A DNA stretch of 53,735 nt from Fibrobacter sp. UWP2 (lineage in GTDB: Bacteria; Fibrobacterota; Fibrobacteria; Fibrobacterales; Fibrobacteraceae): the NCBI RefSeq assembly GCF_900141705.1, contig NZ_FQYM01000022.1:1-53735 (forward strand), given 5' to 3'. Every line of letters starts with the position of its first letter. Positions within the stretch are counted from its first letter, which is position 1. The notes below the pieces were generated by a model, which had not been told where the DNA came from, did not search any database, and was given only the letters and a program-made list of their open reading frames with translations. The translations under genes and the position numbers were made by a program. Shown in pieces: positions 25,147 to 44,317 of this stretch.

Positions 25147-25251
25147 TAATTCGCCTATAAGCTTCGCGATACTGCATCACGCTCGCACTCGCCGTACTAT
25201 TTGTACGGCTTCGGTTCGCGTTCTTTGTCTGGCTCGCTTCTAGGCGAATTA
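25147..25251. repeat. structured intergenic element, copy B (perfect terminal inverted repeats)
   Basis: The element is delimited by TAATTCGCCTA (25147-25157) and its exact reverse complement TAGGCGAATTA (25241-25251). The internal hairpin is GCCGTAC/GTACGGC (25191-25209), corresponding to GCTGTAT/ATACAGC in copy A, so both arms changed together. Positions 25156-25228 are identical to 25264-25336 in copy C. It starts 3 bases after the stop of Na/Pi gene 2. Confidence 0.85.
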
Positions 25252-25261
25252 TTGATATAGC

Positions 25262-25378
25262 TTTATAAGCTTCGCGATACTGCATCACGCTCGCACTCGC
25301 CGTACTATTTGTACGGCTTCGGTTCGCGTTCTTTGTTACTGAGACTCCGCGCTTTTAGCGCGGGCAGTCTCGCCTAGG
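25262..25378. repeat. structured intergenic element, copy C
   Basis: A direct repeat of copy B with a 108-base offset and 73 identical bases, but without the terminal inverted repeats. It continues with the CCGCGC hairpin seen in copy A, here lengthened by GAGACT/AGTCTC arms around CCGCGCT/AGCGCGG (about 25340-25372). It is followed at once by a bidirectional terminator. Confidence 0.8.
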
Positions 25379-29131: not shown

Positions 29132-29683
29132 CTACGACTTTACGGAAGAAGAACTCTTTTCAGAGGATTCCTTTTGACTTGACGAGGATGTGTTTTCATT
29201 ACCACTCGAGACGTTTTCATCTTTGCTGGCTGAAGATCCGTTTTCCGTGCCACTCGAGACGTTTTCATCTTTGCTGGCTGAAGATCCGTTTTCCGTGCCG
29301 CTTGAAACTTTTTCTTCTTTGGTGGAAGATGAACTTTCGTCCTTGTCGGTCGTGGCGGACCATACGACACGCGTGGAATCCCCGCAGGTAATTCTCACCC
29401 CGGCGTTCCCGGACGTGTTGACGGTGTCCTTCACGTGGCAGGTCCCCTGTTCGGTCTCCTCGTCGTGGATGGTGTCGATGGAATCCCCGTTGCAGATAAT
29501 GTCGAAGCCTTCTGCGGATTCCTTGACGGTGCAACCGGAATCGACCTGAGCCGTATCTTTTGGGGGAGTGATTTCGGCGGTGCTGGGCGAGTCGTTTTTC
29601 GACGCGCTTGTGGAGGAATCGTCACCGCAGGCGACGAAAAAGAACAGGGCGCAGGTTCCGGCCAAGAGAGCGAATTTCTTCAT
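29132..29683 (-). CDS. N-terminal part of the split protein: lipoprotein with Ser-rich repeats
   Basis: It begins MKKFALLAGTCALFFFVACGDD, a lipoprotein signal with lipobox FVAC, and has a good AAGGAG Shine-Dalgarno sequence 8 bases upstream. After a Cys-containing module (about 45-105) come nearly identical repeats of about 14 residues (ENGSSASKDENVSSGT). It ends at the internal TAG in the Ser linker. If no readthrough occurs, the cell makes only this 183-residue lipoprotein. Confidence 0.7.
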   Translation of the reverse strand: MKKFALLAGTCALFFFVACGDDSSTSASKNDSPSTAEITPPKDTAQVDSGCTVKESAEGFDIICNGDSIDTIHDEETEQGTCHVKDTVNTSGNAGVRITCGDSTRVVWSATTDKDESSSSTKEEKVSSGTENGSSASKDENVSSGTENGSSASKDENVSSGNENTSSSSQKESSEKSSSSVKS

Positions 29684-40940: not shown

Positions 40941-43514
40941 TTACCAAATAATTGCGGTTTTTGCCACCAAGAAGCGTCTGGAGACTTCGTCGAGCTTGGT
41001 CGGGTCGATGGTAATCCCGAGGAGCCCTGCGTATATCACGAAGGGGCTTATCGTGGTCCCCTGGTTGTTGCACTTGACCTTGATGACGAGGGTTTTCCCC
41101 TGGATGTCGATTTCCATCACGTGCTCGTTCAGGTCGAATTCCTGGCCGCGGTGGTTCACGACGGTGGGGAGTGTCTTGGCGTTGAACCGCTCCATCAGGT
41201 CGGCGGGCACGCTCTCGGGGGTGTAGCTGTACACCATCGCCGTGGGGAAGTGCATGCTCAGGCGTTCCTTGAGAGGTTCGATGTCCACGATTTCCATGCC
41301 GCGCGGGAATGGCGCCGAGAGGCTCTCGATGAGCTTTGGTTTGTTCTCGGTCGAGAGGTCGAGCTCGCGCAGCAGTTCCACGCTAATGATTTCGCAGTAG
41401 GTCTCCATGCCAAGCGGGAGAGCGCCCATGTTCACAATGCGCGGTTTTGGGCTAAAGCCCTCGCTGAACTTGATGGGGATGCCTGCGCAGAGGAAAGTGC
41501 GCTCGAAAAAGCCCAGCATGTTCTGGTGCGGCAAAAAGCGGCTGATGCCGGTCTTTTTGAAGGTGATTTTGTAGCGGAAGGCTTCCGTCTTTTTGGGGCG
41601 GCGCTCGGCGACCAGCTTTTTGATTTCTTCGGGGGTGCGGCTCGGCGCCTTGTGGCGCACGGGGTTGTCGGCGAGCTTGATCTCGGCTCCAAAGCCGGGG
41701 ATGCCGCACTTTTGGCAGTCGCCCCACTTGCAGTTGGGCACGGGTGCCGAGTTCGGGTCAAACGCCTTTTCCCATTCGCGGCGCAGGTACTGCTTGGTGG
41801 TCCCCGCGTGGATAAAGTCCCAAGGAAACACTTCGCTTGCCTCGCGGGTGCGGTACACCCAGTCGGTTTCGTAGCCTGTCTCCTGCCAAACCTGCAGCCA
41901 TTTTTCAAAGTCAAAACGGTAGGTGTCGCTCTCGAAAATGATGCCCTTCTTGTAGGCGGCGTAAATCACAGGGGCGAGGCTTCGGTCGCCGCGGCTGTAG
42001 ATGGCCTCGAGGAAGCTCGTCTCCCAGCTGGCCCAGTTGATTTTCACGTTCGGGTGGCGGAAGAACTTTTCGCGCACGTACTTGATGTGCTGGAGCGCCG
42101 TGTCCTTGTCCATGAACGGCGCCCACTGCAGCCCGGTAAAAGACTTGGGTATCAAGATGCCGATGGAGACCGCGATCTGGATTCCCTTGTTGTGCTTGCG
42201 GCCGATTTTCACCAGGTTCTGGATGAGGTTACAGAACGCCTCCATGTCTTGCTCGTTCTCGGTGGGGAAGCCGATCATGGTGTAGAGCTTGATCTTGTTG
42301 AACCCGCTGCTGAAGGCGTGCTCGGCGGCGTCGTACATGTCCTGGTCGCTAATGGTCTTGTTGATCATTTTGCGGATGCGCTCCGAACCGGTTTCGGGGG
42401 CGAAGGTGGCACTGCGTCCCCCCTTCAGGGCTGCCACTTTTTCGGCAAGACTTTGGCCAAAACTGTTCACGCGGATGCTCGGCAGGCTCACATCCACGTT
42501 GTCGTAGAACGGGTCGTCAATGATGGAGTCGGTGAGGGCTTCCACGGGCTTGTAGTCGGCGGTCGAGAGGCTCAAAAGCCCGAGCTCGCGTTCACCGGTC
42601 GCCTTGAGTCCCGCCTTGGCGATGTCCAGCACGTCGTCGGGGTCCAGTTCGCGGCACGGGCGGTACCAAATGCCCGCCTGGCAAAAACGGCAGCCCTGGG
42701 CGCACCCGCGCATCACCTCGACGCTAAAGCGGTTGTGCACCAGCCTCATGTTCGCGATCAGGTTCCGCACCGGGTAGTCCTTGGGGTCCATCACGGGGAT
42801 AAACTGGCGGCGCACGCCGTTCGTGTTCTGGTAGGTTCCCTTGGCGGGCTCCGCCGGTACCAGAACCCCAAATTCGTTCTTTACAACCGTGCGCAGGCTG
42901 GGGACGTATACGCCGTCAATTTTAGACAAGTTAAGCAAAATCTGGGCGCGGGGGAGGTGCGCCTTGCGGCCTTCGCCCACGCAACGAATAAATTCGACAA
43001 TCAGTTTTTCGCCGTCGCCGATCATGAAGGCGTCAAAAAAGTCGGCGACGGGTTCGGGGTTCGCCATTGAGGGGCCGCCGGCGACCACGATGGGGTCCTC
43101 TTCCTTGCGGTCGCGGCTCCACACGGGGATTCTCGCCAGGTCCAGTACGTAGGGCACGTTCGTGAAGTTGAGCTCGGTCTGCAGCGTCATGCCTACTACT
43201 TCGTAGTCGCGCACCGCCGTGTAGCTTGCGTGCGTGTACAGCGGGATGTCGTACTTTTGCATTTCTCGCGCCATGTCATCCCACGGGGCAAAACTCACTT
43301 CGCAAAGCAGGTCGGGCTCGCGGTTGATCACGTGGTACAAAATGCGGATGCCGTTGTTGCTCATGCCAATCTCGTAGGTGTCCGGGAACACGAACGCCAT
43401 GCGGGCGAGCATTTTGCTGTGGTCCTTCACCACGCTGTTGGCTTCGCCGCCCATGTACCGGGCGGGGTTTTCGACGGCAGGAAGCGCCAAGGCGATTTTT
43501 TCGAGAATGGTCAT
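40941..43514 (-). CDS. B12-binding-like radical SAM protein fused to a DUF2344 domain (TIGR03960/TIGR03936 type)
   Basis: A cytoplasmic radical SAM enzyme of unknown substrate. The N-terminal part (about 35-215) is cobalamin-binding-domain-like (PIVVAGGPSMANPEPVADFF). The cluster motif GCAQGCRFC gives C271, C275 and C278. The C-terminal DUF2344 domain begins near KITFKKTGISRFLPHQNM and contains FSEGFSPKPRI. I place the start at ATG 43514 (MTILEKIALALPAVENPA) because a TAAATT -10 lies 7 bases upstream and this segment is what the upstream array repeats. An in-frame upstream extension has no support. In many bacteria this gene lies near ribosomal or RNase genes, suggesting an RNA-related role. 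Confidence 0.88.
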   Translation of the reverse strand: MTILEKIALALPAVENPARYMGGEANSVVKDHSKMLARMAFVFPDTYEIGMSNNGIRILYHVINREPDLLCEVSFAPWDDMAREMQKYDIPLYTHASYTAVRDYEVVGMTLQTELNFTNVPYVLDLARIPVWSRDRKEEDPIVVAGGPSMANPEPVADFFDAFMIGDGEKLIVEFIRCVGEGRKAHLPRAQILLNLSKIDGVYVPSLRTVVKNEFGVLVPAEPAKGTYQNTNGVRRQFIPVMDPKDYPVRNLIANMRLVHNRFSVEVMRGCAQGCRFCQAGIWYRPCRELDPDDVLDIAKAGLKATGERELGLLSLSTADYKPVEALTDSIIDDPFYDNVDVSLPSIRVNSFGQSLAEKVAALKGGRSATFAPETGSERIRKMINKTISDQDMYDAAEHAFSSGFNKIKLYTMIGFPTENEQDMEAFCNLIQNLVKIGRKHNKGIQIAVSIGILIPKSFTGLQWAPFMDKDTALQHIKYVREKFFRHPNVKINWASWETSFLEAIYSRGDRSLAPVIYAAYKKGIIFESDTYRFDFEKWLQVWQETGYETDWVYRTREASEVFPWDFIHAGTTKQYLRREWEKAFDPNSAPVPNCKWGDCQKCGIPGFGAEIKLADNPVRHKAPSRTPEEIKKLVAERRPKKTEAFRYKITFKKTGISRFLPHQNMLGFFERTFLCAGIPIKFSEGFSPKPRIVNMGALPLGMETYCEIISVELLRELDLSTENKPKLIESLSAPFPRGMEIVDIEPLKERLSMHFPTAMVYSYTPESVPADLMERFNAKTLPTVVNHRGQEFDLNEHVMEIDIQGKTLVIKVKCNNQGTTISPFVIYAGLLGITIDPTKLDEVSRRFLVAKTAIIW

Positions 43515-44317
43515 AAACCCCAATTTAGAAAAAAAAACGCCCGGTACGCCGTGAGCCACAAAGCCCCTTGCCTAAAGCAAGGGGCGGTGGCGAGAGCACG
43601 GCTCCATTCAAGAATTTTAGACCCGTGACAAGAGCCGTGCGGTCTCGTGTGAGGCGGGGTTTTCGACGGCAGGAAGCGCCAAGGCGATTTTTTCGAGAAT
43701 GGTCATAAACCCCAATTTAGAAAAAAAACCGCCCGGTACGCCGTGAGCCACAAAGCCCCTTGCCTAAAGCAAGGGGCGGTGGCGAGAGCACGGCTCCATT
43801 CAAGAATTTTAGACCCGTGACAAGAGCCGTGCGGTCTCGTGTGAGGCGGGGTTTTCGACGGCAGGAAGCGCCAAGGCGATTTTTTCGAGAATGGTCATAA
43901 ACCCCAATTTAGAAAAAATCCGCCCGGTACGCCGTGAGCCACAAAGCCCCTTGCCTAAAGCAAGGGGCGGTGGCGAGAGCACGGCTCCATTCAAGAATTT
44001 TAGACCCGTGACAAGAGCCGTGCGGTCTCGTGTGAGGCGGGGTTTTCGACGGCAGGAAGCGCCAAGGCGATTTTTTCGAGAATGGTCATAAACCCCAATT
44101 TAGAAAAAATCCGCCCGGTACGCCGTGAGCCACAAAGCCCCTTGCCTAAAGCAAGGGGCGGTGGCGAGAGCACGGCTCCATTCAAGAATTTTAGGCCCGC
44201 GACAAGAGCCGTGCGGTCTCGTGAGAGGCGGGGTTTTCGACGGCAGGAAGCGCCAAGGCGATTTTTTCGAGAATGGTCATAAACCCCAATTTAGAAAAGA
44301 ATCCGCCCGGTACGCGG
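43462..44317. repeat. tandem array of 191-192 bp units copying the 5' end of the radical SAM gene
   Basis: The segment from the gene's 18th codon through its start codon and -10 element to CGCCCGGTACG occurs five times. Its start codons (minus strand) are at 43514, 43706, 43898, 44089 and 44280, a period of 192, 192, 191, 191. The copies are joined by four copies of a 115-base spacer. Each spacer has hairpin GCCCCTTGC/GCAAGGGGC (43563-43585 in the first) and stem GCACGGCTC/GAGCCGTGC. Units differ mainly in the A-run after TTAG; the outermost one has a few substitutions. Each extra copy encodes the gene's first 18 codons plus 11 new ones, ending in TAA (first: 43617-43706). The period is too long for CRISPR. 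Confidence 0.95.
43522..43527 (-). promoter_or_regulatory. -10 element of the radical SAM gene, repeated in each array unit
   Basis: On the minus strand TAAATT is followed by GGGGTTT and ATG at 43514. The same sequence and spacing precede the four extra start codons at 43706, 43898, 44089 and 44280. No Shine-Dalgarno sequence is present in any copy. Confidence 0.5.

Follow-up and report, generated by a model that had tools for sequence, protein, structure and literature searches.

Large coding elements, namely islands and homing open reading frames (ORFs), are the known examples of mobile DNA that mends the gene into which it inserts. The ends of tRNA and protein genes are typical integrase targets, and integrase islands restore the gene end. 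In fungal mitochondria, the mobile ORFs of atp6, atp9, cox2 and nad3 in Allomyces and Glomus are homing-endonuclease elements that displace the native gene end and supply a foreign one, with little or no change to the protein and with inferred horizontal transfer (PMC3630166). In the seekRNA or bridge-RNA systems of IS110/IS1111, a structured RNA of 70-100 nt with target complements selects the insertion site, matching both target strands in separate segments and requiring a DEDD transposase (PMC11187229). Here we describe a tandem array at the 5' end of a radical SAM gene of Fibrobacter sp. UWP2 (genome G000, a draft of 72 contigs) and compare it with other Fibrobacter genomes (the remaining G numbers); the window is the whole 53,735-nt stretch analysed, contig 22 of that draft. 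The array is probably a stack of four non-coding mobile units of ~191 bp, each of which restores the gene end, at codon 18/19 of the radical SAM gene.

Anatomy of the array at the radical SAM gene

The target gene is intact and encodes, in 857 codons on the minus strand, a B12-binding radical SAM protein of the TIGR03960/TIGR03936 type whose N-terminus is shared by the orthologues in 24 genus genomes. TRF called an array at 43461-44315 with a period of 191, 4.5 copies and 98% matches, and a repeat search placed five copies of an 89-nt gene 5' end at spacings of 192, 192, 191 and 191 (Table 1). Every copy lies on the minus strand and comprises a promoter-like CTAAATT, an ATG and 18 codons (MTILEKIALALPAVENPA). 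The five head-to-tail copies described in the original prediction are thus real, with coordinates and periods correct to within 2 bases, and only the copy with its ATG at 43514 continues into the full gene, as had been stated. The differences between copies were said to lie mostly in an A-run, and they do, but three substitutions in the gene-distal spacer (44124-44226) have to be added; the view that the expansion is recent agrees with the identity of three of the four spacers. What had been overlooked is a structured element, E, between the gene-start copies: the non-gene part of each period is ~102 nt long and has relatives elsewhere in the genome. Displaced starts open ORFs of ~30 codons, and stop codons and a hairpin precede the next promoter.

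Wherever E belongs to a larger gene-end unit, which is true of only a minority of E loci, the order of parts is constant: a displaced gene end, a linker of ~8 nt, one or two copies of E, a short stretch designated T', a restored regulatory signal and gene end (R), and the remainder of the gene. The units span 152-441 bp and hold no coding sequence. The junction (J) was placed where displaced and intact copies diverge. Ahead of the gene-joined R, T' occupies 43538-43547 (GTACCGGGCG), and in the remaining array copies it is 11 nt long (GTACCGGGCGG).

Table 1. Coordinates of the radical SAM gene and of the parts of the array in the window
Feature	Position	Strand	Basis or remark
Radical SAM target gene	40941-43514	minus	ATG at 43514, stop at 40941-40943
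Whole array, five gene 5'-end copies with four E elements between	43461-44315	minus	TRF and repeat search
Target T, CCGCC/CGGTAC on the minus strand	43455-43465	minus	Junction J (slash) between 43461 and 43460
Restored gene 5' end R, continuous with the gene (CTAAATT, ATG, 18 codons)	43461-43549	minus	Repeat search
E copy 1 (HP1 and HP2), nearest the gene	43551-43644	minus	Covariance model R1, E-value 4.7e-16; fold z -5.1
Linker of 8 nt, TCACACGA, from displaced copy to GACCG of E	43645-43652	minus	Near 8 nt at other target genes too
Gene 5'-end copy 2 with T'	43653-43741	minus	Repeat search
E copy 2	43743-43836	minus	Covariance model
Gene 5'-end copy 3 with T'	43845-43933	minus	Repeat search
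E copy 3	43934-44027	minus	Covariance model
Gene 5'-end copy 4 with T'	44036-44124	minus	Repeat search
E copy 4, most diverged (three spacer substitutions)	44125-44218	minus	Covariance model
Gene-distal displaced copy 5, with T' at 44303-44313	44227-44315	minus	Sequence

Across related genomes the element number at this gene varies, with four in G000, two in G017, one each in G002, G079 and G094, and none at 63 of the 67 loci from other genomes. Remnants consisting of T' and the right end of E, without a full element, occur in G016, G057, G058, G062, G078 and G091. The displaced promoter and start of G094 (91 nt) are letter-identical to the intact start of its empty near relative G005, the gene bodies of the two being 96% identical, whereas the restored start of G094 has a different promoter from its displaced native copy. 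In general, R has another promoter or terminator than the displaced native copy. The restored starts are also recoded, with 13, 10 and 9 of 18 codons changed in G002, G017 and G094, respectively, and no amino-acid changes. That the array might be an assembly artefact, as a draft in 72 contigs could lead one to suspect, is extremely improbable, given that its units can be told apart by their differences and that equivalent arrays with other copy numbers exist in independently assembled relatives. Elsewhere in the window, TRF found two more tandem repeats, at 25163-25328 (period 52) and 29202-29325 (period 48).

Element E and the target complement at other genes

E is a ~94-nt element of two tandem hairpins, HP1 and HP2, and the array spacer folds into two stable hairpins with z-scores of -5.1 and -5.6 for the two strands. 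A pattern derived from HP2 matched 36 of 41 genus genomes, with almost no matches for the reversed control, and the alignment of 36 elements contains invariant GACCG, CTCTCGC and GCTCAC blocks between which the stems vary in concert. The covariation score was 0.501, compared with 0.119 for shuffled alignments and 0.038-0.088 for slid partners, and 95% of cells were paired; template-switch correction of inverted repeats could add to this covariation. Using a covariance model, we found ~57 copies in G000 (E-value < 1e-3) and 18-33 in each of three further Fibrobacter species, whereas 13 genomes from outside the genus gave none. Rfam assigned no family to E, only tmRNA and tRNA passing its cut-offs in ten loci, and the element pattern gave no match among IMG/VR viral contigs.

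Most copies of E are solitary or in tandem arrays of ~95 nt, and a stop triplet, in whatever reading frame, lies at most 9 nt upstream in 67 of 107 E clusters. In this everyday form E resembles the repetitive extragenic palindromic sequences and bacterial interspersed mosaic elements (REP/BIMEs), being palindromic, dispersed, non-coding, mostly located directly behind stop codons and frequently arranged as short tandem arrays. It differs from REP/BIMEs with a REP-associated tyrosine transposase (RAYT) in that the Y1 transposase is absent from G000, and to our knowledge no REP/BIME brings along a replacement gene end or a complement of its target. Another repeated module (CTCCCACCTAAAGGTGGCCATG...AAAGGTCGC) lies inside or adjoining E, often between HP1 and HP2, at C16:37823, C4:119032, C7:64785 and C30:8440 of the G000 genome and at locus L085, and the copy at C2:50109-50244 of the same genome has an extra AT-rich insertion of ~50 nt in the HP2 loop.

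Within the units, T' lies to the right of E and reads as the reverse complement of a target stretch that spans the insertion point, the complementarity starting 4-6 nt beyond the junction and extending over 9-17 nt in general and about 11 nt at the window array. All 34 units examined at three genes matched their own target (mean score 11.6, minimum 8), compared with a mean of 4.1 and a maximum of 8 in the cross-gene control, and shuffled T' seldom attained the observed score. T' also follows the host. At rplT it reads CTTGGCC in the five species whose target is CAAG and ATGGCC in the other fourteen, and at the radical SAM gene GTAACG, ATAGCG or GTACCG match targets CGTTAC, CGCTAT or CGGTAC. 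Of the 67 radical SAM loci, three of the four filled ones had a complement of 9 nt or more upstream, and none of the 63 others did. At tRNA-Arg, T' stands next to a single gene copy where an element, another hairpin or a remnant adjoins it. T' is complementary to the displaced half of the target as well, which gives a closing stem around E that is evident in the radical SAM and tRNA cases and weak in the rplT one. We rejected T' as a trait of all E copies: most of the 107 clusters lack a stretch complementary to the left flank next to them, and the highest scores for such a complement belong mainly to gene-restoring units.

Equivalent units occur at the 3' ends of other genes. At tRNA-Arg(ACG) they were found in G000 (two stacked), G003, G005, G014, G016, G023, G042, G043 and G044, and G020 has E and T' to the left of an otherwise single gene copy. 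The stacked pair of G000 (C1:111744-112363, loci L005/L218) consists of ~298-bp units with two E copies each, and its displaced 28-nt tRNA-Arg ends could be miscalled as tRNA fragments. A variant in G007 (locus L212, G007:C34:92859-93034) has unrelated hairpins in place of E while keeping the linker and T', which suggests that the folded scaffold of the units is exchangeable. At rplT, encoding ribosomal protein L20, units are present in 19 species, and in nearly all of them the duplication stops at query base 57, at one and the same codon junction; in G000 (C5:112576-112943, loci L198 and L305) the last 19 rplT codons are displaced beyond the intact gene, with E between. The serS 3' end of G000 (C34:1992-2081, locus L155), with a short diverged displaced copy and a 12-nt T' (CTTGAAGTCATT) that forms a hairpin over the stop codon, is probably a fourth target. 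Downstream of the tmRNA gene of G020 (locus L087, G020:C3:38013-38240) stand two E copies with a duplicated terminator half, at a period of 137; this array was rejected as a T' unit because a T' match is absent even though the flank is duplicated.

The signals repeated at the tRNA-Arg and rplT 3' ends are terminators rather than promoters. The original prediction had taken the radical SAM array for an amplification of promoters that tunes expression, and the CTAAATT motif and ATG are indeed kept in each copy. Since no promoter is duplicated by the corresponding units at the tRNA and rplT 3' ends, this proposal is unsupported; each unit instead is an insertion of a foreign structured element together with a replacement gene start. 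Most species lack the array, and the displaced starts each end in a stop codon followed by hairpins, so that a role of the array as a promoter stack or leader that tunes expression of the radical SAM gene is very improbable.

The units share with the integrative islands and prophages at tRNA and tmRNA 3' ends a displaced direct repeat on one side and a restored gene on the other. They could accordingly be imagined as non-autonomous remnants of a tyrosine- or serine-integrase element, with the gene ends as attB and R as an attP core that restores the gene, a reading for which both the gene-end targets, typical of integrases, and the identical displaced/restored layout speak. We nevertheless regard it as unlikely. 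Integrase specificity resides in the protein, whereas a single scaffold E serves several unrelated targets, each with its own T'. The units are also non-coding and only ~190-440 bp long, and none larger was seen at tRNA-Arg (31 genomes) or rplT (80 genomes), whereas islands are larger and carry an integrase. At 152-441 bp there is no room for an integrase gene inside the units; a trans-acting integrase elsewhere was not sought.

Probable mobility, stacking and origin of the units

The sequences themselves show the constant anatomy, the T' rule at several genes, the fixed junctions, the foreign or recoded ends, the non-identical stacks and the regenerated target; beyond this, the units appear to move between species. 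Between G000 and G065, the 90 nt of the rplT units from T' to the stop codon show no difference, whereas the native left flanks (65 nt) align at only 80% and the rplT bodies at 94%. Likewise, the right parts of the tRNA-Arg units of G003 and G005 share 99% identity across 74 nt, compared with 56% for the left flanks, and the displaced tRNA-Arg terminator of G005 resembles the terminator of the empty G045. Because foreign restored ends are shared while the adjacent native ends differ, we favor transfer between species.

An inserted unit would displace the native gene end while providing a replacement up to the exact insertion point. With a new end supplied, the gene would remain whole and the target would be rebuilt, and further units could insert beside the gene. 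Stacks in relatives are consistent with this scheme: G049 and G057 each have two stacked rplT units that differ in element number and type, T' and terminator, and because they are non-identical they look like successive insertions at a rebuilt target rather than duplicates. Extra copies may thus have arisen through repeated insertion at the rebuilt target, through unequal exchange between near-identical units, or both. Because the outermost copy of the window array also has a T', it suggests an older unit whose element has since been lost and which may have decayed there.

A simpler origin would be plain local tandem duplication, in which a hairpin repeat landed near the gene and was then multiplied, along with the neighboring gene start, by slippage or unequal crossing-over. 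Such repeats readily change copy number through unequal exchange, and the window units are 98% identical, with three of four spacers the same. Against this stand the differences between restored and displaced copies in promoter and codons (G002, G017, G094 and G079), the outermost copy, which has native upstream sequence with no element ahead and matches the unit-free relative (G005/G094), and the junction, fixed at one base in many species. Duplication also leaves T' unexplained, and the stacks of G049 and G057 contain non-identical units. As an account of the whole array we therefore consider it quite unlikely, and as the origin of the units it is contradicted; for the extra copies in the window it is still likely. 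As the window units are near-identical and the gene-distal one is the most diverged, copies could have been gained in either of two ways, by insertion of a unit already resident or by unequal exchange.

Several observations weigh against the view of the array as a stack of mobile, gene-restoring units. Most dispersed E copies lie just after stop codons without a restored gene end or T', and E alone therefore does not imply gene-restoring behavior. Within the window, simple duplication of one unit suffices for such closely similar copies. Sites that look empty could have lost a unit precisely through recombination between the repeats, and because such loss is easy, vertical descent with many losses is conceivable; horizontal transfer is inferred, not proven. 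Function need not be what keeps T' matched to T, since template-switch correction of inverted repeats could do so instead. The genomes compared are largely metagenome-assembled. Finally, we found no transposase, recombinase or nuclease linked to E: Y1_Tnp (PF01797) had no match in G000 and was present in 4 of 16 genus genomes searched, the TnpB-type protein (PF07282) was found in none of 17 genomes while six control genomes were positive, and the IS110-type Transposase_20 (PF02371) was absent from G000 and present in 1 of 11 genus genomes searched. RAYT, TnpB and IS110 were on these grounds rejected as partners for E, the respective enzymes being absent from G000.

Without any dedicated enzyme, each unit might have been made once by rare template switches at inverted repeats and then spread between species by ordinary recombination with foreign DNA. 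The T'-R-T arrangement and that of T-left, E and T' are inverted repeats able to template such switches, the shared gene flanks would be enough for spread (as in the 90 of 90 nt common to G000 and G065), and the outcome of the enzyme searches fits. The assembly of linker, E, T' and R in constant order would then need to have happened independently at three or four unrelated genes, and we judge this course of events fairly unlikely.

A candidate guided insertion system and its significance

Under the preferred reading of the array as mobile gene-restoring units, T' may guide insertion, with a hypothetical trans-acting enzyme finding the target through the folded E and T', as RNA or as single-stranded DNA. 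The units could then represent an undescribed nucleic-acid-guided insertion system, a tentative proposal, in which a scaffold E of ~90 nt and a guide T' of 9-17 nt would direct insertion into a conserved gene end, the repair patch would be included, and exchanges of T' and R would retarget the unit while the scaffold stays constant. Like the seekRNA systems, the Fibrobacter unit pairs a folded element with a target complement; unlike them, its T' is a single contiguous complement, and G000 has no IS110-type gene. In islands, too, target specificity is not exchanged on a constant scaffold in this way.

As a working analogue, the fungal mitochondrial mobile ORF would be the closest, by virtue of the foreign, mainly synonymous gene-end replacement seen in G002, G017 and G094. 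The Fibrobacter units have no endonuclease ORF in their non-coding spacer of ~102 nt and are far shorter; they are also bacterial and tandem-stacked, carry a structured element and T', and target a tRNA as well. Imperfect inverted repeats that fold as single strands flank the tandem units, as in the attC sites of integron cassettes, but the cargo of the units is a gene-end replacement. An integron attC array was rejected by inspection, since the core boxes RYYYAAC/GTTRRRY are missing and GACCG, CTCTCGC and GGCTCAC are the conserved motifs instead. A CRISPR array was also rejected: there are no unique foreign spacers, and both halves of the unit repeat, one of them being the host gene start. 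We found no Fibrobacter elements of this kind, nor tiny gene-restoring elements, in the open-access literature, subscription papers lying outside that search; within this scope the family of E and its units appears to be undescribed.

The Fibrobacter unit thus consists of ~190 non-coding bases, recurs at conserved genes across the genus and carries a complement of its own target. Should T' indeed act as a guide, the units would form a new, guided class of mobile DNA that combines scaffold, guide and repair template, and the carried repair patch would make hits in essential genes harmless while regenerating the target for further rounds. Even without guiding, the units explain the recurrent duplicated gene ends of Fibrobacter, which annotation pipelines may misread as truncated genes, and they offer a natural system for studying how recoding and inverted repeats stabilize an insertion.

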